Part shown: positions 3,991 through 15,636 of the stretch, one piece after another | How the letters are laid out: the number at the start of each line of letters is the position of its first letter | Position numbering within the stretch: position 1 is the stretch's first letter | NCBI RefSeq assembly: GCF_000725545.1 | Contig: NZ_JNZP01000004.1 | Span: 1-64,000, forward strand | Direction of reading: 5' to 3' | DNA from: Streptomyces exfoliatus | GTDB lineage: Bacteria > Actinomycetota > Actinomycetes > Streptomycetales > Streptomycetaceae | DNA: 64,000 nucleotides | The notes under the pieces: generated by a model | The model's input: only the letters and a program-made list of their open reading frames with translations | Databases searched by the model: none | Told to the model about the DNA's origin: nothing | Position numbers and translations under genes: made by a program

Positions 3991-4691
3991 TCACTCGTTC
4001 GGGGTGTCGCCCTCCGTGTCGCCTGTCTCCTCGACGGGCGGGGCGAGGAACAGCGGGCAGAGCCTGTCGAGGATCCAGGTTCCACCGGGCGCACCAGCAT
4101 CGGGGCGGCGGCAACAACGGCGAGGACGGCTTCCCTCACTCCGATGACCGGGGCAAGACGTTCGTAGAGCCAAAAGAGCCGCCCCGCTCCCCGCGCGAGG
4201 ATCTTGCCCTCGTAGTGCCACTCCGGGGAGCACTCCCGCTCTTCCACGAGGACGCTGAGGCCGACGGCGACGAGGTACGGGTCCCAGGCGTTGGGCCAAG
4301 AGTTCAGCCAGGCGACCGTGGCCGCCGGCTCGTCGCCCTCGCCCGCCGGGGCGGCATCCGTCGCTCTCGGAGCGACGACGGGTTCCGGCAGCGCTTCTCT
4401 GAGCTCCGGGAGACTCATCTCGATCGGGTCGTTTTCGAGGACGTTGTAGAACAGGGCCCGCGTCATGGCTGTCGGACCTTGCCCCGTGATCGCGGCGAAG
4501 GGCTTCAGCTCCCAGCCGGGGTCGGCGGTCGCCCGCTGCACGTCGGACTCGAACCTGTTGACGGCGGGCGTATTCGTTTGGGCACGTGGAGCCCTGGGGT
4601 TCTTCTGCGCGGCCTCCGCCGCCGCGCGGGTAGCGCGCCGGACAAGGTTGTGGATCTCGCCGAGCGGCCCGAGCTCGGCCCTCTTGTACAC
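3991..4691 (-). pseudogene. Hypothetical protein gene with apparent frameshift near 4085
   Basis: I do not recognise the family. The minus-strand frame opens at GTG 4691 (MYKRAELGPLGEIHNLVRR) and has natural sequence such as WELKPFAAITGQGPTAMTRA and YEGKILARGAGRLFWLYERL. At about 4085 the frame becomes implausibly arginine/serine-rich (SSTGSARCSSPRPSRRQ). The neighbouring frame then reads GGTWILDRLCPLFLAPPVEE and stops at 3991 with good third-position G/C. The repaired product would be about 232 residues, soluble and mildly acidic. A single-base slip in the GGTGGAACC area explains it, either as an assembly error or true decay. It lies head to head with the knottin cassette; no functional link is shown. 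Confidence 0.45.
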
Positions 4692-4740
4692 GGCCTTGGT
4701 GCCCCTGCGATCAAGGCCTTCACGCTACAAGGGGAACCTC

Positions 4741-4914
4741 GTGCGGATCGAGGTCACCGACACCCGAAGGGAGGCTCTGCCCAGATGCCCGGCCGCCGCC
4801 GACGGCGAAGGCGAAGGCAGTCGCGGACTGCTGCTCGTCGAGGCGCTGGCCGACCGCTGGGGCTGCTCACCCCACTCCTGCGGCGGACCTGAGAAGACCG
4901 TCTGGGACGAGTTC
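4741..4914 (+). pseudogene. Remnant of an anti-sigma-factor-type HATPase gene, C-terminal fragment
   Basis: The + strand encodes VRIEVTDTRREAL, then a linker, then [16 protein letters not shown] and EKTVWDEF. This is the C-terminal half of the small GHKL ATP-binding proteins (RsbW/SpoIIAB-like) abundant in Streptomyces. The N-terminal half with the N-box is absent: upstream sequence belongs to the minus-strand gene ending at 4691. No start codon or RBS supports expression. A second scrap of the same family lies at 6927-6980, so the two flank the knottin cassette. Confidence 0.6.
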
Positions 4915-5203
4915 AACTCCATCCGCGGCAGCCTCCATCCCACTTCCTGGCGGCATCGAATAGGACCACGGCGACGAGTACGGCCCGATGCCGGACCCGC
5001 GAGGCGTCGCATGGCCGCGGGCCGCGGTTCCTGCCATCGGGAACGGCGTGAACCGTGGCTTGAAGTTGCCCCGGCCAACGGCGACTGCGCGCTACCATCC
5101 CGAACGTGCTCTTCATCCTCCGGGCGAACCTTCGGACTGAGCGGAATGCATACGCTTGCCCGGGACAAGGAAGTGGCTGCCCTCCTCACGAGAAGGACGA
5201 ATC
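4915..5203. promoter_or_regulatory. Leader and presumed promoter region of the knottin cassette
   Basis: No coding signal is seen here. It must contain the promoter of the 5204 gene. I could not assign a convincing -35/-10 pair; GCATACGCT around 5146 is the best -10-like run. The ribosome binding site is clear: GAAGGA at 5192-5197, seven bases or so before ATG 5204. Confidence 0.4.
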
Positions 5204-5386
5204 ATGGTCACCTTCACGGCAGACTTGGTGTCCCTCGACGCCGAGACGGTCACGGACATCGAAGGAATCTTCACCGAGGTCTTCACGGCCCCGACTGCTT
5301 GCACCGACGCCGGAGGTGCCTGCTGGCTGGACTCCGAGTGCTGCCCGGGCATGATCTGTTCGTGGTTCAAATGCACCCGGGCCTGA
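5204..5386 (+). CDS. Putative knottin-like (inhibitor cystine knot) RiPP precursor peptide
   Basis: This is a 60-residue peptide with a good ribosome binding site. Residues 1-32 form a cysteine-free acidic leader with an amphipathic stretch (LDAETVTDIEGIFTEVF) ending in TAPTA. Residues 33-60 form a core with six cysteines at 33, 40, 46, 47, 52 and 57, spacing C-x6-C-x5-C-C-x4-C-x4-C. This falls within the inhibitor cystine knot pattern of conotoxins, spider toxins and plant knottins, including the central CC pair and glycine/proline turns (GGAC, CCPGM). The gene overlaps the start of the next by 16 bases, implying translational coupling to a thioredoxin-containing protein. I infer a ribosomally made peptide cleaved after the leader and folded by three disulfides (1-4, 2-5, 3-6 if a true knot). 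Target and exporter are unknown. A zinc-binding mini-protein is the main alternative. Confidence 0.72.
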   Translation: MVTFTADLVSLDAETVTDIEGIFTEVFTAPTACTDAGGACWLDSECCPGMICSWFKCTRA

Positions 5387-6708
5387 GACTGGCCGATGGT
5401 GTAATCAGCGTTGATCTCGGGCGCGGCAGCGTCTTGCTGGATATCGCCCGGCCTGTGGCTGCTTTCGTCGCCCCGATGGCCATGCCGTGGCTGCAGGGCA
5501 AGGAGCCGGCCGTGGAAGACCACGCCGCCTACCGGCAGTGCCTCGAGAGGTGGAGCGCTGCCGGGCTCGTCCGCGTCGGCAACACCCAGCCGGCTCTCAC
5601 GCCCGACTCGACTCAAATGCGGGCGCAGGCTGACGATGTCGCAGTGCCGCATCGCGTGTTGGTGGTGGCCATGTCGTCGGAGTGCGGATTCTGCACGCAG
5701 CTGTCGGCCGACCTCGCCGCGAATGCCTCCGTCGTGACCCGCTTGAACTCCTCCGTACTTCTACTCGAAGACGTGCGGGACGAATTGCTGGGCTTGCCTG
5801 TCCCGCCGCAGGTCCGAGAACGACTTGCGGCACTCGGACGCAGGACGGCACATCTCGGGACTCCGAGTGGCTGGCTTCTGTCACCCGGCAGCCCCGCCAG
5901 GTTCGTTGTGGGGTTCCCCGAGGTCAGCGCCGAGTTGGTGCAGCTCAGCGGCGGCAACGCCATGGCAACGGTGATCGAAGCTCCTACCAGTTGCTCCCTC
6001 AAGGTCGCCGAAGCGCCAGTAGACGCGTTGGTGACCGCTCCGGTGGACGGCGGCCGCGCCGTGGGCATCGCGGTCCGGGGCGGCGACGACATACTCGAGT
6101 TGGTCCGATCGGTGACCGGTGAGGGGCACCAGGGCGCCTACACACCCGTCACACTGACCGTGGAACGGCCACAATCGCTTTACCTGTTCTACCGGGGCGG
6201 CGAACTCCTCACTCGCGCCCGGACGGCAGAGGCTTTGAGACAGACCTTGGCCCAAGTGCTGACGGGTTACGGACTTCCCAACCCCGGCGAGACGACGCTG
6301 CTGTGCGCGGCGGCTGTGCACCGGGCTGGACGCGCAGTCCTGCTGCCGCGGAATTGGCTGTCGGACCTCGTCGCGCACTCAACGAGGCTTGAGCGTGCCG
6401 GCTGGCGCCTCTGCCCAAGGCCGTTCACCACCCTGCGCCTTCCGCCGTCGGGAGGAAGACCGGTGTTGACCGGCTCGCCCGCAAGCCGGGAGCGGGATGT
6501 TCCAGTCAACAGCATCTTGTCTCAGTCAGCTTCGACCGGGTCGGGGACGCATGCTCAGTTGCTGGCTCAGATCGTCAACTGGGTCCATCGTCCTGCCACA
6601 CCCGATTCCGTTTGCTCGCTGGCAGAAACCCTTAAGACCCTGCCGGTGCACGTCGGTACGTGGCGCCAGGCCCTCGACCATCTGCTTGCCGACTCGCCTG
6701 GCACCTGA
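5371..6708 (+). CDS. Putative RiPP maturase: PqqD/RRE-like + thioredoxin (CGFC) + degenerate HprK-like protein
   Basis: A 445-residue soluble protein starting at ATG 5371 inside the end of the precursor gene, in another frame. Residues 5-70 (LRLADGVISVDLGRGSVLLD ... LERWSAAGLVRVG) resemble PqqD-type peptide-recognition domains. Residues 94-190 are thioredoxin-like: strand RVLVVAMSSECGFCTQL with the redox pair C105/C108, and the cis-proline loop LGTPSGWLLSPG near 162-173. Residues 220-445 resemble the HprK-like domain of RiPP clusters (YLFYRGGELLTRARTAEALR, then LLCAAAVHRAGRAVLLP). The P-loop after AVLLP is lost, reading RNWLSDL instead of a GxxGxGKS motif. My inference is that it binds the precursor leader and forms or shuffles its disulfides, with a non-catalytic HprK part as scaffold. 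No protease or transporter is adjacent. Confidence 0.65.
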   Translation: MHPGLRLADGVISVDLGRGSVLLDIARPVAAFVAPMAMPWLQGKEPAVEDHAAYRQCLERWSAAGLVRVGNTQPALTPDSTQMRAQADDVAVPHRVLVVAMSSECGFCTQLSADLAANASVVTRLNSSVLLLEDVRDELLGLPVPPQVRERLAALGRRTAHLGTPSGWLLSPGSPARFVVGFPEVSAELVQLSGGNAMATVIEAPTSCSLKVAEAPVDALVTAPVDGGRAVGIAVRGGDDILELVRSVTGEGHQGAYTPVTLTVERPQSLYLFYRGGELLTRARTAEALRQTLAQVLTGYGLPNPGETTLLCAAAVHRAGRAVLLPRNWLSDLVAHSTRLERAGWRLCPRPFTTLRLPPSGGRPVLTGSPASRERDVPVNSILSQSASTGSGTHAQLLAQIVNWVHRPATPDSVCSLAETLKTLPVHVGTWRQALDHLLADSPGT

Positions 6709-7074
6709 CGAGATCAGGGGCTGGGGGAGGACCTCTGTGAGGATGCTGACCTCTCATTCCTGCCTGGCCATGAGCCCGTCGACAAGGACGGGGGCGATGT
6801 CGTCCATCGGGGCCTGTTCTCGGGCGACGTCGAGGTCCTGGCCGGGCCGGGCGAGCAGCTCGTGGGCTTGGGTGCCGTTGCGCTGCGGTGATCACCAGCG
6901 GGCACGGGGCAGCGAGCCAGGACTGCGGCGAGGGCAGGCGCGACCTGCTCCTGGTCGAGGGCCTTGGCTGACCATTGGGGGCCTTCACGCCGCGATGGCG
7001 GCAGGCCCGGCAGGCCCCTCTGGGCGGAGTGTGATCCTGAACGCCAAGCGGACATCAGTTTCCGACAGGCTGGG
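6709..7074. other. Degenerate intergenic region with gene scraps
   Basis: No intact gene is present in these 366 bases. Apart from the HATPase scrap at 6927-6980, the minus strand at about 6768-6875 reads AHELLARPGQDLDVAREQ followed by APMDDIAPVLVDGLMARQE and a stop. This looks like the coded tail of an unrecognised protein whose front is missing. The stretch appears to be a graveyard of small decayed genes. Confidence 0.35.
6927..6980 (+). pseudogene. Second scrap of an anti-sigma-type HATPase gene
   Basis: The + strand reads GEGRRDLLLVEGL and then, after a one-base slip, ADHWG. This matches the [16 protein letters not shown] motif found at 4741-4914. Nothing of the rest of the gene is recognisable, and a stop codon (TGA at 6968-6970) interrupts the original frame. 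It appears to be a decayed copy. Confidence 0.4.
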
Positions 7075-9762
7075 TCAGTCCTCGTCCGGCACCGCGACCG
7101 CTCCGTCCCGGCCGCGCATACGCTCAAAGGTCGGGTTGTCGACGGACACGTCCCGTTCCATGATGTCAGCCTCTTCCGTGCGGCCTTCCAATCGGAGGGT
7201 GCGGATCACGTCGTGGGCGATCGCGGCCTCGTTCCACTCGTACGAACCGGACCTGTAGATCGCCAGCGCGGCGTCGAAATCCGCGTGCGCCTCCGTGTAC
7301 CGGCCGAGTTCGCGATAGGCCACGCCTCGCAGGTGACGTGCCATCGCACCCGCATAGGAGTCGCCGGCTGCAGCACAAGCGTCCACGGCATGCGTGAGCG
7401 GCGCCTCGGCGTCCTGAGGGCGTCGAGCACGCAACTGCAGCCAGCCGACGTCCCGCTGGGTGTGCGCCACCCACATGTGGTCGTCCAACTGCTCGAACAG
7501 CGAGATCGCCTGGCGGGCAGTGGCGGCAGCATCATCAAGCCGTCCCATGCCCGCAAGGACACGGATCCGGGCGTTGTTCACCCGGCCGAGCCACAGCCGC
7601 TCCCCCATCCGGCCGAAGATACCCTCCGCCCGGCTGTAGCAGTCGAGCGCCTTCTGGCGCTCTCCAAGAAGTCGATAGATCTTGCCGAGGGCGTACTCCG
7701 TGGCACCTTCCCAACGGCGGTCGCGGAGAAGCCTGAAGTCATCCCTGGCCGATTCGAGCAGAGAGGCCGCCTCCGACGGGCGGCGTAGATAACCGAGCGT
7801 CTCGGCGAGGGTGCGCCGCAGACGTGCCCGTGCCCTCAGGTCACCCGCCTGTTCGGCGAGGCGCAAGGCCTCCCGCTGGCTCTGCTCGCCCAGCTCGGGT
7901 TTCCCACGCCAGCGTTGCAGCTCCCCCAGCAGCTCGAGGGAACCGAGGGTATGCCAGGAATCGCCAACCACCCGCAGCTCGTCCACTGCGGTCGTCATAC
8001 GGTCAAGAGCGGTGCGGTAGTCCCCCTTCATGGAGTGCGCCCGGGCAACCACCATTGCGTCCCGGGCCCATAGGGCCCGGTCCCTGGACCTCTCCACTGC
8101 GTCGTCGCTGCTCAAGGGCAGAAGCGAAAGCACCCGGTCCGGGTTGCCTTCGGCGAGGGAAGCCATCGCGCGTGCTCTGCGGAGACCGGCCAGCACCCGC
8201 GGCCGCGTCTCCCCAGCAACCTCAAAGATCCACTCAGCGGAATTCGGAGCCAGGGTGATGTCGTCAAGGAAGTACGACAGCGCCTCTCCAATCTCCCCAG
8301 CAACCGCGTTCAGCCCAAGGGTTCGTGCGTGGTCGAGCGCCCAAAGGAGACGCTCCTGCTCGTCGGCGACCCACTCAGCGGCTGTGACCGACGCTCCGGA
8401 GAGGTCGGACATGCGCTGAGGGTCCACCTCGGTGCGCAGCTCCGGGGCGCGCTGAGCTGCCCAATAGACAACAGCGTCCCTGTAGGCCCGGACCAGACGT
8501 TCCTCCAGAGCGTTCTGTTCCTCCGGCGGCATCTGCTCGTACTGACGGGTGAGGAAGAGACGCGTCAAGTCGTGCATGCGGTAGCTGCTCTCGGAGTCAC
8601 CGCCGCCGTCTTCCTCTTCCAGCCTCTCCATCAACGCGACCTCGAGCAGTTCGTCACCGGCCGCAAGTCCGGCCGCGCGGGTGGTCGCGAGCCGGGTGAG
8701 ATGCCAGTCCGTCAACCGGCCTGGAGGCAATGAGGCGAGCAAAGCGAAGGAGGAACGGGTAGTCGGCGTGAGGCCCTGGAAACTCAAGGTGAAGCAGGCA
8801 GTCAGCCTGCTGTTGTCGAGACGTCCCAGGCTCTCCAGGCGGTCTGTTTCATCGACCAGGGCCTGCCGCATACGGCCAAGACTGTGGCCCGATTCCTTCA
8901 GCTTGCAGCCGACCAGCCGCAAGGCCAGCGGGAGGTTGCTGCAAAATCGAAGAATGTCCATTGCCGCCGTCATCTCGGCGGCAACGCGTTCCTGCCCCGC
9001 GTAGTGCGCGAGCACGGCAAGCGCGTTCTGATCGTTTGGCAGACGCACCGGCAGCGGCTCCCGCTGGGTGATGCTGTTGAAAGAGAGCGCGCGTCGAGAG
9101 GTGATCAGCACCGAGCAACCGGGTCCAGTGGGGAGCAGAGGCTCGATCTGATCCTTGCTGTGCGCGTTGTCCAGGACAACAAGCAGTCGCATATCTGCAG
9201 TGAGTGTCCGGAACATCGCCGCCCGGTCGTCGACGGAGTTCGGCACATCCTTCGGGTCCACGTGCAGACTGCGGAGGAGCATGTGACCGAGTGCATCGGA
9301 ACTGCTCCTCGGAGTCGCCTTGTCACCATGGAGTTCGAGGTAGATCTGACCGTCCGGGTAGGCGTCCTTCACCTCGTACGCGGCATTGACTGCCAGGGCC
9401 GTCTTTCCCACCCCGGGCTGGCCATGCACGACAACGAGTTTCGACTGCCCCGCAGCGGCACTTGACGGGAGCGAGCGACTGTCGGGTACTGGCACGTCCC
9501 GGAGATAGGCGCGTAGACCGTCCAGGCCGGCGGTCTCGCCGGCCAGCGTTTCCCTCATGGGAAGTTCGCGAGGTGGTTGCGCCGCAGAGGCCGACTGCCG
9601 GGGTTCGGTTGCCGGAGCCTGCACGACCAGCTGGCCCACCTGCAGGGCAACTGCGTGGGCGATGTTCCCGCCGGCGGCGATCGAGCCCTGCTCCGCGCTC
9701 AGCCCCCCGCGCCCCTGCCGCTTGTCACGGCCTGAACCACGACGCCACCACCCGGCACTCAC
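7075..9762 (-). CDS. STAND NTPase: NB-ARC domain with C-terminal TPR repeats
   Basis: An 895-residue protein of the AfsR-like STAND class but without the N-terminal SARP DNA-binding domain. Residues 1-60 contain GSIAAGGNI (26-34). An NB-ARC module follows: P-loop GQPGVGKT at 114-121, Walker B LLVVLD at 193-198, and GCSVLITSRR at 215-224. Next comes a winged-helix region (YRMHDLTRLFLTRQY), and the last ~350 residues are tetratricopeptide repeats (LGKIYRLLGERQKALDCYSR). Start GTG 9762 is chosen because it forms a GTGA overlap with the stop of the membrane protein gene at 9759, a sign of translational coupling. Such proteins act as nucleotide-driven switches in regulation or anti-phage defence. 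Without a DNA-binding domain, a signalling or defence role is more likely. It converges on the knottin cassette. Confidence 0.85.
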   Translation of the reverse strand: MSAGWWRRGSGRDKRQGRGGLSAEQGSIAAGGNIAHAVALQVGQLVVQAPATEPRQSASAAQPPRELPMRETLAGETAGLDGLRAYLRDVPVPDSRSLPSSAAAGQSKLVVVHGQPGVGKTALAVNAAYEVKDAYPDGQIYLELHGDKATPRSSSDALGHMLLRSLHVDPKDVPNSVDDRAAMFRTLTADMRLLVVLDNAHSKDQIEPLLPTGPGCSVLITSRRALSFNSITQREPLPVRLPNDQNALAVLAHYAGQERVAAEMTAAMDILRFCSNLPLALRLVGCKLKESGHSLGRMRQALVDETDRLESLGRLDNSRLTACFTLSFQGLTPTTRSSFALLASLPPGRLTDWHLTRLATTRAAGLAAGDELLEVALMERLEEEDGGGDSESSYRMHDLTRLFLTRQYEQMPPEEQNALEERLVRAYRDAVVYWAAQRAPELRTEVDPQRMSDLSGASVTAAEWVADEQERLLWALDHARTLGLNAVAGEIGEALSYFLDDITLAPNSAEWIFEVAGETRPRVLAGLRRARAMASLAEGNPDRVLSLLPLSSDDAVERSRDRALWARDAMVVARAHSMKGDYRTALDRMTTAVDELRVVGDSWHTLGSLELLGELQRWRGKPELGEQSQREALRLAEQAGDLRARARLRRTLAETLGYLRRPSEAASLLESARDDFRLLRDRRWEGATEYALGKIYRLLGERQKALDCYSRAEGIFGRMGERLWLGRVNNARIRVLAGMGRLDDAAATARQAISLFEQLDDHMWVAHTQRDVGWLQLRARRPQDAEAPLTHAVDACAAAGDSYAGAMARHLRGVAYRELGRYTEAHADFDAALAIYRSGSYEWNEAAIAHDVIRTLRLEGRTEEADIMERDVSVDNPTFERMRGRDGAVAVPDED

Positions 9763-10142
9763 CGGGGACCTTCGTACGCCGACGAACCATCGACATCCCC
9801 ACCGGCAGCGATCGACCCGCCTTCCGCCCGGATCCCAGTTGCAGGCGCCGAATCCGGCTGCCACGCTGCGCCGGCGCTCCGAGCCCGGGCATTTCGCACA
9901 CTCCCGGCCGCAGCGATCGCCCCGCCGCGCGCCACCGCCGTGTCAACCGGCGTCTGTCGCAAGTGCGCCACCAGCGACAGTACGAAACCAGCGACGGTGA
10001 CGAACAGGCTCAGCACGCTACTCAGCTTGTCAGCCCGGTCAAGGCCCAGAAGCGTCATGAACACGGCCAGAGCGATGACACCCGCGATTCCGCCGACCAG
10101 GCGCAGCAACTGCCAGTTAGTCATGACCTTATGATGGCCCAT
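9759..10142 (-). CDS. Small two-helix membrane protein coupled to STAND NTPase
   Basis: A 127-residue protein with two predicted membrane helices, about residues 12-33 (LLRLVGGIAGVIALAVFM) and 41-61 (SVLSLFVTVAGFVLSLVAHL). The hydrophilic tail carries two copies of a small motif, GAIAAAGS near 74 and GSIAAGGD near 109. The same motif recurs as GSIAAGGNI at the start of the STAND protein encoded next, with which the stop codon overlaps (GTGA). The shared motif and coupling suggest that the two proteins assemble together, the membrane protein perhaps serving as anchor or effector. The start could be ATG 10142 or ATG 10124 (MTNWQLLRL); neither has a strong RBS. Confidence 0.65.
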   Translation of the reverse strand: MGHHKVMTNWQLLRLVGGIAGVIALAVFMTLLGLDRADKLSSVLSLFVTVAGFVLSLVAHLRQTPVDTAVARGGAIAAAGSVRNARARSAGAAWQPDSAPATGIRAEGGSIAAGGDVDGSSAYEGPR

Positions 10143-10475
10143 CAAGGACTCTCAGGGGATCCGGCCGCGTCAATTTCCGCCACCGATTCTCTAGGCGTTT
10201 GGGGCGTAACGATCAGTCTCAGCACGACATGAGATGTCGCTCGAGCGCTGCAGGACTGGCGCGGCTGCGGATCAATCGAGAAGAGGCACGGTCGCTCTGC
10301 CACTGGCGGGAGACCATCGGGGCCCCGCTGCCCCAGTTCGAGGCCCTCGCGAGCGCCTACGGGCGGGTGGACGGGCCGGGCAGCGAGAAGGCTCTGGAGT
10401 GCCGGGCGCAGGCCGCGCGCTGCCGGAGCGAGATCGGTCAGGTGGCCGAGACGCTCACAGGGCTGCAGGACGTCG
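10143..10475. other. Intergenic stretch with an open but unrecognised remnant
   Basis: From about 10244 the + strand stays open with natural-looking sequence (LARLRINREEARSLCHWRE, LECRAQAARCRSEIGQVAE) for about 80 codons, then loses sense near 10490. No start codon with RBS is visible and I do not recognise the family. It may be the tail of a regulator, such as MerR-like, broken by the transposase fragment that follows. Confidence 0.3.
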
Positions 10476-11484: not shown

Positions 11485-11561
11485 TGGTGGGGCGGGTGGG
11501 ACTCGAACCCACGGCCGACGGATTATGAGTCCGCTGCTCTAACCGGCTGAGCTACCGCCCC
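11485..11561 (-). tRNA. tRNA-Met (anticodon CAU)
   Basis: Read on the minus strand, a full cloverleaf is present. The acceptor stem GGGGCGG pairs with CCGCCCC, the D-arm is GCTC...GAGC, the anticodon stem GCGGA/TCCGT has loop CTCATAA, and the T-arm GTGGG-TTCGAGT-CCCAC is canonical. The CCA end is encoded at 11485-11487. The anticodon CAU could also denote tRNA-Ile2 whose C is modified to lysidine; elongator Met is the default. Its 3' end faces the accessory region on the left, a typical integration position. Confidence 0.9.
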
Positions 11562-11726
11562 GATCGGTGAGGCGCGTACATGTGTGCGCGCCGTCTGCCG
11601 CAGCATAGCCGCTCATACGATCTCCTGCTCCGGAAGATCGGCTCTGCTGACCATGAAGACCCCGGCGCGCCCGGCATGGTTCCCGGGGACGCGAAAAAGG
11701 ACCCCGAAGGGTCCTCTTCCGTCTCG

Positions 11727-11799
11727 CTCCCCCGGCTGGACTCGAACCAGCAACCCTCCGGTTAACAGCCGAATGCTCTGCCAATTGAGCTACAGGGGA
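11727..11799 (-). tRNA. tRNA-Asn (anticodon GUU), copy 1
   Basis: The minus strand folds into a tRNA with acceptor stem TCCCCTG/CGGGGGA (one T-G pair), D-arm GCTC-AATTGGCA-GAGC, anticodon loop CTGTTAA (GUU) and T-loop TTCGAGT. CCA is not encoded. It is nearly identical to the copy five bases upstream in transcription order, so the two form a tandem duplication. Confidence 0.95.
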
Positions 11800-11804
11800 T
11801 CGCG

Positions 11805-11877
11805 CTCCCCCGACTGGACTCGAACCAGTAACCTGCCGGTTAACAGCCGACTGCTCTGCCAATTGAGCTACAGGGGA
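11805..11877 (-). tRNA. tRNA-Asn (anticodon GUU), copy 2
   Basis: Same fold and anticodon as the neighbouring copy. The differences are in the anticodon-stem, variable and T-stem bases (for example AGTCGG versus ATTCGG, and TACTGG versus TGCTGG). The two genes are five bases apart and surely cotranscribed. Confidence 0.95.
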
Positions 11878-13902: not shown

Positions 13903-15636
13903 GTGCTCATAAGACTCCTGCGAACCCACCTCGGGCCCTACCGAAAACCGATCGCCCTGCTCGTGCTGCTGCAGTTCCTGCAGACCTGCGCGAGCCTCTA
14001 TCTGCCGACCCTGAACGCGGACATCATCGACAACGGTGTCGTCGACGGGGACACCGGTTACATCCTGCGGTTCGGCGCCCTGATGGTCGGCGTCTCCGTC
14101 GTCCAGGTCGTCTGCAACATCGGGGCCGTGTTCTACGGCGCCCGGACGGCCTCCGCCCTGGGCCGGGACGTGCGCGCCGCGGTCTTCGACCGGGTGCAGT
14201 CGTTCTCGGCGCGGGAGCTGGGGCACTTCGGCGCGCCCTCGCTGATCACCCGTACGACCAATGACGTGCAGCAGATCCAGATGCTGGTCCTGATGGCGTT
14301 CACCCTGATGGTCTCCGCGCCCATCATGTGTGTCGGCGGCATCGTGATGGCCCTCGGCCAGGACGTGCCGCTCTCGGGTGTCCTGCTCGCCGTGGTGCCG
14401 GTCCTCGGGATCTCCGTCTCGCTGATCGTGCGGAGGATGCGGCCGCTCTTCCGGACGATGCAGGAGCGGCTCGACACGGTGAACCGGGTGCTGCGGGAGC
14501 AGATCACCGGCAACCGGGTGATCCGCGCGTTCGTGAAGGACACGTACGAGGAGGAGCGGTTCCGCGGGGCCAACGCCGACCTGACCGACGTGTCGATGGC
14601 CACCGGCCGGCTGATGGCGCTGATGTTCCCGACGGTGATGACCGTCGTGAACATCTCCAGCGTCGCCGTCGTCTGGTTCGGTGCGCACCGCATCGACAGC
14701 GGCGGGATGCAGATCGGTGCGCTGACCGCGTTCCTTGCCTATCTGATGCAGATCGTGATGGCGGTCATGATGGCCACCTTCATGTTCATGCAGGTGCCGC
14801 GGGCCGAGGTCTGCGCGGAGCGCATCGAGGAGGTCCTCGGGACCGAGTCGAGCGTGGTGCCGCCGGTGGAGCCGGTGAAGACCCTGGACCGGCGGGGGCA
14901 TCTGGAGGTCAGGAGCGCCGACTTCCGTTACCCGGGTGCCGAGGAGTCCGTGCTCAAGGACGTCGGGCTCGTCGCACGGCCCGGTGAGACCACGGCGATC
15001 ATCGGCTCGACCGGCAGCGGGAAGTCCACGCTCCTCGGGCTCGTGCCCCGGCTCTTCGACGCCACCGGAGGAGAGGTCCTCGTCGACGGCGTCGACGTGC
15101 GGAAGCTCGATCCCGGGCTGATGGCGAGGACGGTGGGGCTCGTCCCCCAGAAGCCGTACCTGTTCTCCGGGACCGTCGCCACCAACCTGCGGTACGGCAA
15201 GCCCGACGCCACCGACGAGGAACTCTGGCACGCCCTGGAGGTCGCCCAGGCCGCCGACTTCGTACGGAACCTGGAGAACGGGCTGAACGCCCCGATCGCC
15301 CAGGGCGGCACCAACGTCTCCGGCGGGCAGCGGCAGCGGCTCGCCATCGCGCGGACGCTGGTGCAGCGGCCGGAGATCTATCTGTTCGACGACTCGTTCT
15401 CCGCGCTCGACTACGAGACGGACGCCCTGCTCAGGGCCGCGCTCGCCGAGGAGACGGCCGACTCGACCGTCGTGATCGTCGCCCAGCGGGTCTCCACCAT
15501 CCGGGACGCCGACCGGATCGTCGTCCTCGACGAGGGCCGGGTCGTCGGCACCGGACGGCACCAGGAGCTGATGGCGGACAACGAGACGTACCGGGAGATC
15601 GTCCTCTCCCAGCTCACCGAGGCGGAGGCAGCCTGA
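13903..15636 (+). CDS. ABC exporter half-transporter, subunit A (degenerate ATP site)
   Basis: A 577-residue fused permease-ATPase: six membrane helices in residues 1-310 and a nucleotide-binding domain after about 330. The domain has Walker A GSTGSGKST, signature VSGGQRQRLAIAR and Walker B YLFDDSFSALD. The residue after the Walker B aspartate is Asp instead of the catalytic Glu, as in one half of heterodimeric multidrug exporters (TM287/288, BmrCD). Start is GTG 13903. The stop overlaps the ATG of the next gene by one base, so both halves are made together. The substrate is unknown, probably lipophilic compounds. A close paralogue lies at 32425. Confidence 0.9.
   Translation: MLIRLLRTHLGPYRKPIALLVLLQFLQTCASLYLPTLNADIIDNGVVDGDTGYILRFGALMVGVSVVQVVCNIGAVFYGARTASALGRDVRAAVFDRVQSFSARELGHFGAPSLITRTTNDVQQIQMLVLMAFTLMVSAPIMCVGGIVMALGQDVPLSGVLLAVVPVLGISVSLIVRRMRPLFRTMQERLDTVNRVLREQITGNRVIRAFVKDTYEEERFRGANADLTDVSMATGRLMALMFPTVMTVVNISSVAVVWFGAHRIDSGGMQIGALTAFLAYLMQIVMAVMMATFMFMQVPRAEVCAERIEEVLGTESSVVPPVEPVKTLDRRGHLEVRSADFRYPGAEESVLKDVGLVARPGETTAIIGSTGSGKSTLLGLVPRLFDATGGEVLVDGVDVRKLDPGLMARTVGLVPQKPYLFSGTVATNLRYGKPDATDEELWHALEVAQAADFVRNLENGLNAPIAQGGTNVSGGQRQRLAIARTLVQRPEIYLFDDSFSALDYETDALLRAALAEETADSTVVIVAQRVSTIRDADRIVVLDEGRVVGTGRHQELMADNETYREIVLSQLTEAEAA

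Follow-up and report, generated by a model that had tools for sequence, protein, structure and literature searches.

Positions 5204 to 6708 of the window, the 64,000-nucleotide stretch of Streptomyces exfoliatus DNA analyzed here (contig NZ_JNZP01000004.1, positions 1 to 64,000), encode a small cysteine-rich precursor peptide, P0001, and a partner predicted to have three domains, P0002, termed the maturase. The precursor–maturase pair is a real, conserved family. It probably represents a system resembling those of ribosomally synthesized and post-translationally modified peptides (RiPPs), in which a RiPP recognition element (RRE) guides the installation of disulfides in knottins and disulfide formation is directed by the leader. 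This mechanism is plausible and unusual. The two genes are arranged as follows:

5204..5386, forward strand: precursor peptide gene (P0001), 60 amino acids; leader residues 1–32 are Cys-free, and the core, from Cys33, contains six cysteines.

5371..6708, forward strand: maturase gene (P0002), 445 amino acids, with the ATG at 5371 as its likely start.

The precursor gene begins with ATG at 5204 and its TGA ends at 5386, with a GAAGGA purine run 5' of the start. The first-pass annotation had described a 60-residue gene with a ribosome-binding site, a Cys-free leader and the core spacing C-x6-C-x5-CC-x4-C-x4-C, all of which can be read directly at this position. An inhibitor cystine knot (ICK)-type regular expression, run over all six frames of the window, matches a single open reading frame (ORF), whereas 60 first-order Markov resamplings of the sequence yield no match; the ICK-type ORF thus exceeds chance expectation. 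A structural model of the P0001 core is predicted to resemble ICK venom peptide structures. Inspection of P0001 by eye shows no obvious signal peptide, and no promoter or terminator patterns were found at 4600–7100 of the window. A sequence search of solved structures with P0001 returned just two chains, at E-values of 3.5 and 8.2, neither of them significant. Kinship to Pfam Dickkopf_N was considered and rejected, because the match barely exceeds the cut-off (25.5 bits versus 25) and is taken to reflect a common cysteine frame. The records P0006 and P0013, members of the two families, bear misleading names in public databases: "Dickkopf N-terminal cysteine-rich domain-containing protein" and "coatomer subunit epsilon".

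Conservation of the precursor was assessed in an alignment (A4) of 34 sequences, 33 of them distinct, collected by similarity from P0001, six locus translations and the profile finds minus P0046, a longer reading of P0045. One locus row in A4 repeats a database row, and the precursors of loci L008, L009 and L026 have no rows of their own, those of L008 and L009 being equal to P0033 and P0040. All 34 aligned precursors fit the ICK frame C..C..CC..C..C and fall into six spacing classes. Outside the CC pair, the inter-cysteine spacing is 6-5-4-4 in 8 rows, 6-5-4-9 in 10 and 6-6-3-10 in 13, with three singletons, and the 6-6-3-10 class carries at least one cysteine ahead of the knot frame. A leader end of the form [FL]T[DE]xxxAPxAC precedes these differing core classes in 32 of the 34 rows (FT[DE]xxxAPxAC in 30), P0048 and P0052 being the only two without it; the leader/core boundary, whose absence in homologues would have counted against the earlier proposal, is thus conserved. 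Within a clade, conservation is higher in the core than in the leader, although the leader end is common across core classes. Seven Nei-Gojobori comparisons, of which six involve one set of four sequences, give ratios of nonsynonymous to synonymous substitution (dN/dS) from 0.04 to 0.17 for the core and from 0.20 to 0.88 for the leader, values that indicate strong purifying selection on the cores in two clades. Between the window and the homologous locus L004 the ratios are 0.60 for the whole precursor, 0.66 for the leader and 0.52 for the core, at a dS of 0.12. The corresponding Nei-Gojobori ratio for the maturase is 0.35–0.39.

The uniform cysteine frame bears on whether the core cysteines could instead carry a metal, a thioether or another crosslink, with the likeness to knottins limited to spacing. 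Many RRE-bearing RiPP enzymes make non-disulfide crosslinks, and the three disulfides here are predicted, both of which lend this alternative some weight. The vicinal CC, the fit of all six spacing classes to the ICK frame and the modeled resemblance of the core to ICK structures argue against it, as does the lack of any further modifying enzyme recognized in the window's cassette. We consider it the least probable of the alternatives weighed here.

The maturase gene overlaps the precursor gene by 16 bases (5371–5386). Both the overlap and the 445-residue protein with a CGFC motif had been called in the first-pass annotation, and both are confirmed with the start at ATG 5371 and CGFC at residues 105–108. 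The maturase reading frame stays open upstream to 4465 and relatives carry other annotated starts, so that ATG 5371 is likely but not proven. The protein is predicted to combine an RRE, a thioredoxin fold and a degenerate HprK-like domain:

5377..5586, forward strand: predicted RRE, a PqqD-like leader-binding fold (maturase residues 3–72), including Cys57, which is invariant in relatives.

5614..5955, forward strand: predicted thioredoxin fold (residues 82–195), with CGFC at 105–108 and an invariant Thr164-Pro165.

6286..6705, forward strand: predicted HprK/PEPCK-like domain without a P-loop (residues 306–445), in which P326, R327 and W329 are invariant.

The RRE is the leader-binding fold of RiPP enzymes, and the best structural match to the predicted RRE of the maturase is the lasso peptide protein TbiB1 with its leader. 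A thioredoxin domain had been proposed for the second protein at the outset; the follow-up agrees, through the fold predicted at residues 82–195, and joins it to the predicted leader-binding RRE. Only the follow-up identified the leader-binding part as an RRE and recognized the degenerate HprK-like domain at the C-terminus. Sequence searches alone reveal little of this architecture. Neither P0001 nor P0002 matches an NCBIfam model, and a sequence search of solved structures with the maturase found nothing. No Pfam or NCBIfam family scores above its cut-off for P0002, and the matches listed for its 25 relatives, given without cut-offs, are all weak; ten of these relatives were checked singly. 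Pfam Thioredoxin_2 is reached at E <= 1 by 17 of 25 maturases, with P0002 itself at 13.4 bits versus a cut-off of 27.

Residues C105, C108, T164, P165 and C208 are invariant in all 25 maturases, and Cys57 in all 24 that cover its position. Cys57 sits inside the RRE and Cys208 lies C-terminal to the thioredoxin domain; the invariance of these two cysteines outside the CxxC motif suggests an internal relay. These residues help to weigh the main rival to leader-guided disulfide formation, in which the roles are reversed: the maturase would bind the leader and hold the core cysteines reduced and unfolded until export, and general oxidases would form the knot outside the cell. Cytosolic thioredoxin folds are usually reductases, no dedicated re-oxidizing partner is recognized in the window's cassette, and an ABC transporter adjoins the pair in five other loci, all of which fit such a holdase. 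The CGFC or CGYC motif with a threonine before the proline, however, is presumably nearer to DsbC-type isomerases than to CGPC thioredoxins, and the suggested relay also counts against the reversed role, which we regard as unlikely.

The C-terminal domain appears to have lost the features of a working kinase. The P-loop GxxxxGK[ST] is found in none of the 25 maturases, and a sub-region alignment places PRNWLSDLV at the P-loop position. When the C-terminal half was compared with 11 HprK-like proteins, global profile alignment failed, with 49 of 60 shuffles scoring equally high, whereas the local score was reached by none of the 60. For maturase residues 255–356, the score against HprK-like proteins was reached by one of 60 shuffles in either mode.

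The co-occurrence of the two genes in other genomes, a check proposed with the original annotation, was examined across 12 distinct maturase loci obtained after merging duplicates: the window, L004, L005, L006, L007, L008, L009, L010, L023, L024, L025 and L026. Homologous pairs exist elsewhere, and a precursor lies directly upstream of the maturase in 10 of the 12 loci. At L024, neither the profile nor a script found a precursor; the maturase there adjoins a very long ORF that resembles a nonribosomal peptide synthetase by eye. Two copies are decaying. At L025 (genome G303), the maturase is truncated, its C-terminal part running into what remains of a transporter, and at L026 (genome G343) it is in three pieces, one with a stop, with the precursor frame intact. 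Consecutive locus tags link some database pairs (ACWGF2_31395/31400 and ACFRMQ_00935/00940).

Among genomes of the family, the precursor profile matches 8 of 335 at E <= 0.05, and the six genomes with strong matches (E <= 2.1e-23) all fall within the seven family genomes with a maturase match. The two counts are from draws of 335 genomes and of 394 genomes that overlap to an extent not exactly established, and a hypergeometric value assuming that the draws coincide is not relied on; the profile, A4, also includes precursors found beside maturases, which favors the recovery of such pairs. Of the two remaining, weak matches, that in genome G175 was rejected, as no such peptide occurs there, and the weak hit L076 likewise contains none; the other, in G393, is an ICK-like precursor with a different gene set and no maturase match. 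In the maturase tree, each of the three core classes with more than one labelled row falls on one side of a single branch with support of at least 100/99, for 14 of 31 rows bearing a core label, some of them assigned indirectly (for example, from a consecutive locus tag) and not from DNA. Vertical inheritance of the pair would yield the same tree pattern of core classes.

The near-complete linkage of maturase to precursor, together with a redox motif invariant in 25 of 25 relatives and an RRE fold of the kind that serves to bind substrate leaders, stands against a further alternative, in which the precursor folds unaided as a defensin-like bacteriocin akin to actifensin, and the second protein serves in immunity or regulation and does no more than sense the precursor. 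Two genes without a protease are few for a RiPP locus, which suits this view, and actifensin has a leader and three disulfides; the paper describing it does not contain the word "thioredoxin" (PMC6989792). We judge this alternative to be very unlikely.

Relatives of the pair are rare and patchily distributed. A search of 5.8 billion proteins recovered four close precursors and 24 maturases besides the query, with named hosts in Streptomyces, Kitasatospora, Embleya and Streptantibioticus, and a profile built from ten precursors found 28, some of them profile members. Counting the window's own genome, the maturase is present in 7 of 394 genomes in the family, 4 of 392 in Streptomyces and 2 of 394 across the class (both from the window's genus), in searches that scored four candidates per genome and may miss distant relatives. 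It also occurs in 3 of 70 genomes from the genus of G343, which is Kitasatospora, since G182 from that genus carries the DNA of L005, and in 3 of 150 genomes of near relatives, one of these last three being a chance match. L003 was likewise judged a chance match (36% identity over residues 37–110, E 7e-4) and was left out before loci were counted. At the search sensitivity used, no relative was found in plasmids or viral contigs with the maturase as query, or in phages with the precursor as query.

In the mechanism proposed here, the RRE (residues 3–72) would capture the conserved leader, with the segment ending in [FL]T[DE]xxxAP as the probable contact, and the thioredoxin domain (residues 82–195), with its CGFC motif and Thr-Pro loop, would oxidize and reshuffle the core cysteines, installing or proofreading three disulfides. 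Cys57 and Cys208 may act as a relay, and the degenerate HprK-like domain could serve as a scaffold rather than a kinase. The folded peptide would then be exported, in related loci probably via the adjacent ABC transporter, and the leader would be cleaved by a protease apparently not encoded at the locus. Most likely, the product is a stable peptide that is secreted and bioactive.

Few peptide scaffolds are as stable as knottins, whose folding is hard to design. If the proposed mechanism holds, disulfide pairing would count among the RiPP modifications that an enzyme can program, with the knot made inside the bacterium by a compact, leader-guided enzyme. This would allow genetically simple production of knotted peptides and give access to a family of ICK natural products from bacteria. 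The chances are about even that the pair is the first example of a new class of RiPPs, in which a leader-guided RRE-thioredoxin enzyme on a dead HprK-kinase scaffold carries out cytosolic disulfide knotting and one type of leader and enzyme serves several knotted cores. The small gene pair is directly testable in E. coli and Streptomyces.

L004 belongs to genome G713, Streptomyces sp. 13-12-16, which is of the same genus as the window's genome; the G713 stretch L020 is contained in L004 without a mismatch. The pair lies within a block shared with L004 that contains two further genes:

4832..10227, no strand assigned: block of 5.4 kb common to the window and L004 (9462–14855), 91.9% identical as a single block.

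7078..9864, reverse strand: NB-ARC/TPR protein within the shared block.

9762..10145, reverse strand: 128-amino-acid protein within the shared block, with no Pfam match and an N-terminal half that is hydrophobic by eye.

The block comprises the precursor, the maturase, the NB-ARC/TPR protein and the 128-residue protein. Its occurrence as one 5.4 kb unit in flanks that differ between the window and L004 suggests that the cassette moved horizontally. Among the loci compared, a relative of the NB-ARC/TPR protein is found only in L004; the protein is a candidate regulator or self-protection factor, or may be unrelated. Three tRNA genes lie at 11485–11877 of the window, and an ORF that looks relaxase-like by eye lies at 15591–17357 of L004.

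An ABC transporter is encoded directly upstream of the pair in L005, L006, L008 and L026 and downstream in L007, with a remnant in L025. The L005 transporter matches Pfam ABC_tran and two overlapping ATPase models, with no peptidase C39 domain. In the flanks examined of L009, L010, L023, L024 and L004, the search found no relative of the transporter above its limit next to the pair. The window has a single match, to a general ABC pair located 8 kb from the precursor and maturase genes, and none adjacent to them; across the window's genome, the best long match is 35% identical. At L010, a gene that appears by eye to encode an MFS transporter (8326–9549, forward strand) lies directly upstream of the precursor, perhaps replacing the ABC transporter.

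The system shares individual features with several known groups of peptides. It has the cysteine spacing characteristic of venom and plant ICK peptides, and its core may share their fold, as predicted from the model. Eukaryotic ICKs enter the secretory pathway through a signal peptide and are folded by general protein disulfide isomerase, whereas the window's precursor shows no obvious signal peptide by eye and is encoded together with a dedicated partner.

Actifensin is an actinobacterial peptide with a leader, six cysteines and three disulfides, encoded in a locus with a subtilisin-like protease, several ABC genes and hypothetical genes (PMC6989792), and a bacterial three-disulfide peptide is therefore not new in itself. 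The window's precursor resembles the actifensins and actinodefensins of Actinomyces in being an actinobacterial leader with a six-Cys core and in its family's linkage to ABC genes. It differs in cysteine pattern: theirs is C-X5-12-C-X3-C-X9-10-C-X4-5-C-X-C, while the window core has a vicinal CC and lacks the final C-X-C. One of ten maturases scanned matches the NCBIfam model for actinodefensin-associated protein B, at 15.4 bits and far under the cut-off of 45. Bacterial cis-defensins, mostly myxobacterial, are likewise bacterial six-Cys peptides; they were chosen by signal peptide and defensin cysteine pattern, and the words "thioredoxin" and "leader" are absent from the available text of that study (PMC11561630). 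The CCPGW family of putative bacteriocins (NF047792) matches 8 of the 34 precursors weakly, at 11.6–12.1 bits in the three shown versus a cut-off of 80, and does not match P0001.

Dedicated oxidoreductases also have precedents, as the sections available describe BdbAB for sublancin and GccCD for glycocin F (PMC12457901) and a thioredoxin-family protein carried by the bactofencin A producer (PMC7616364). The original claim of novelty was thus overstated insofar as a RiPP or bacteriocin locus with its own oxidoreductase is not new in itself. Like the maturase, these proteins are dedicated thiol-disulfide oxidoreductases for a disulfide-bearing precursor; unlike it, they are presented without an RRE fusion in the text examined and act on other core folds, the glycocins being glycosylated. 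Lasso peptide loci, in the form of LPP loci, contain a discrete RRE and an HprK-like kinase together, according to the excerpted text (PMC13381572). The maturase RRE has the same predicted fold as that of lasso loci (TbiB1), whereas the HprK-like domain is part of a fusion and no longer has a P-loop, and the expected knot is formed by disulfides rather than an isopeptide bond. Neither a macrolactam synthetase nor a B2 protease is recognized among the ORFs of the window's cassette.

A different Streptomyces locus, L077 (6866–9319, reverse strand), encodes a precursor of 55 residues whose six-Cys core is ICK-like. The adjoining protein matches Transglut_core3 at 27.9 bits (cut-off 26), with a lasso B2 model under its cut-off; a 511-residue protein has the look of an asparagine-synthetase-type cyclase by eye, with no Pfam or NCBIfam match, and an RRE-like protein matches actinodefensin-associated protein B at 85.9 bits (cut-off 45). 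ICK-like cores may therefore also be fed to a lasso-like gene set. P0048, a 56-residue metagenome protein, carries a core close to that of the window on an L077-type leader and is 43% identical to the L077 precursor, which gives the impression that the two types of system have exchanged cores and leaders.

One survey reports that the Pfam domains fused to RREs are of 1,158 kinds (PMC12710340), among which a thioredoxin fusion may be included; the words "thioredoxin" and "disulfide" occur zero times in the main text of this survey and of another (PMC7470986). Among the matches listed from the open-licence literature, no title or opening of an abstract describes a knottin RiPP from bacteria or a protein that joins an RRE to a thioredoxin domain, which does not imply absence from print. 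Since bacteriocin oxidoreductases and defensin-type actifensins are already known, the novelty of the system described here is the fusion of an RRE to a thioredoxin domain, together with an ICK core.
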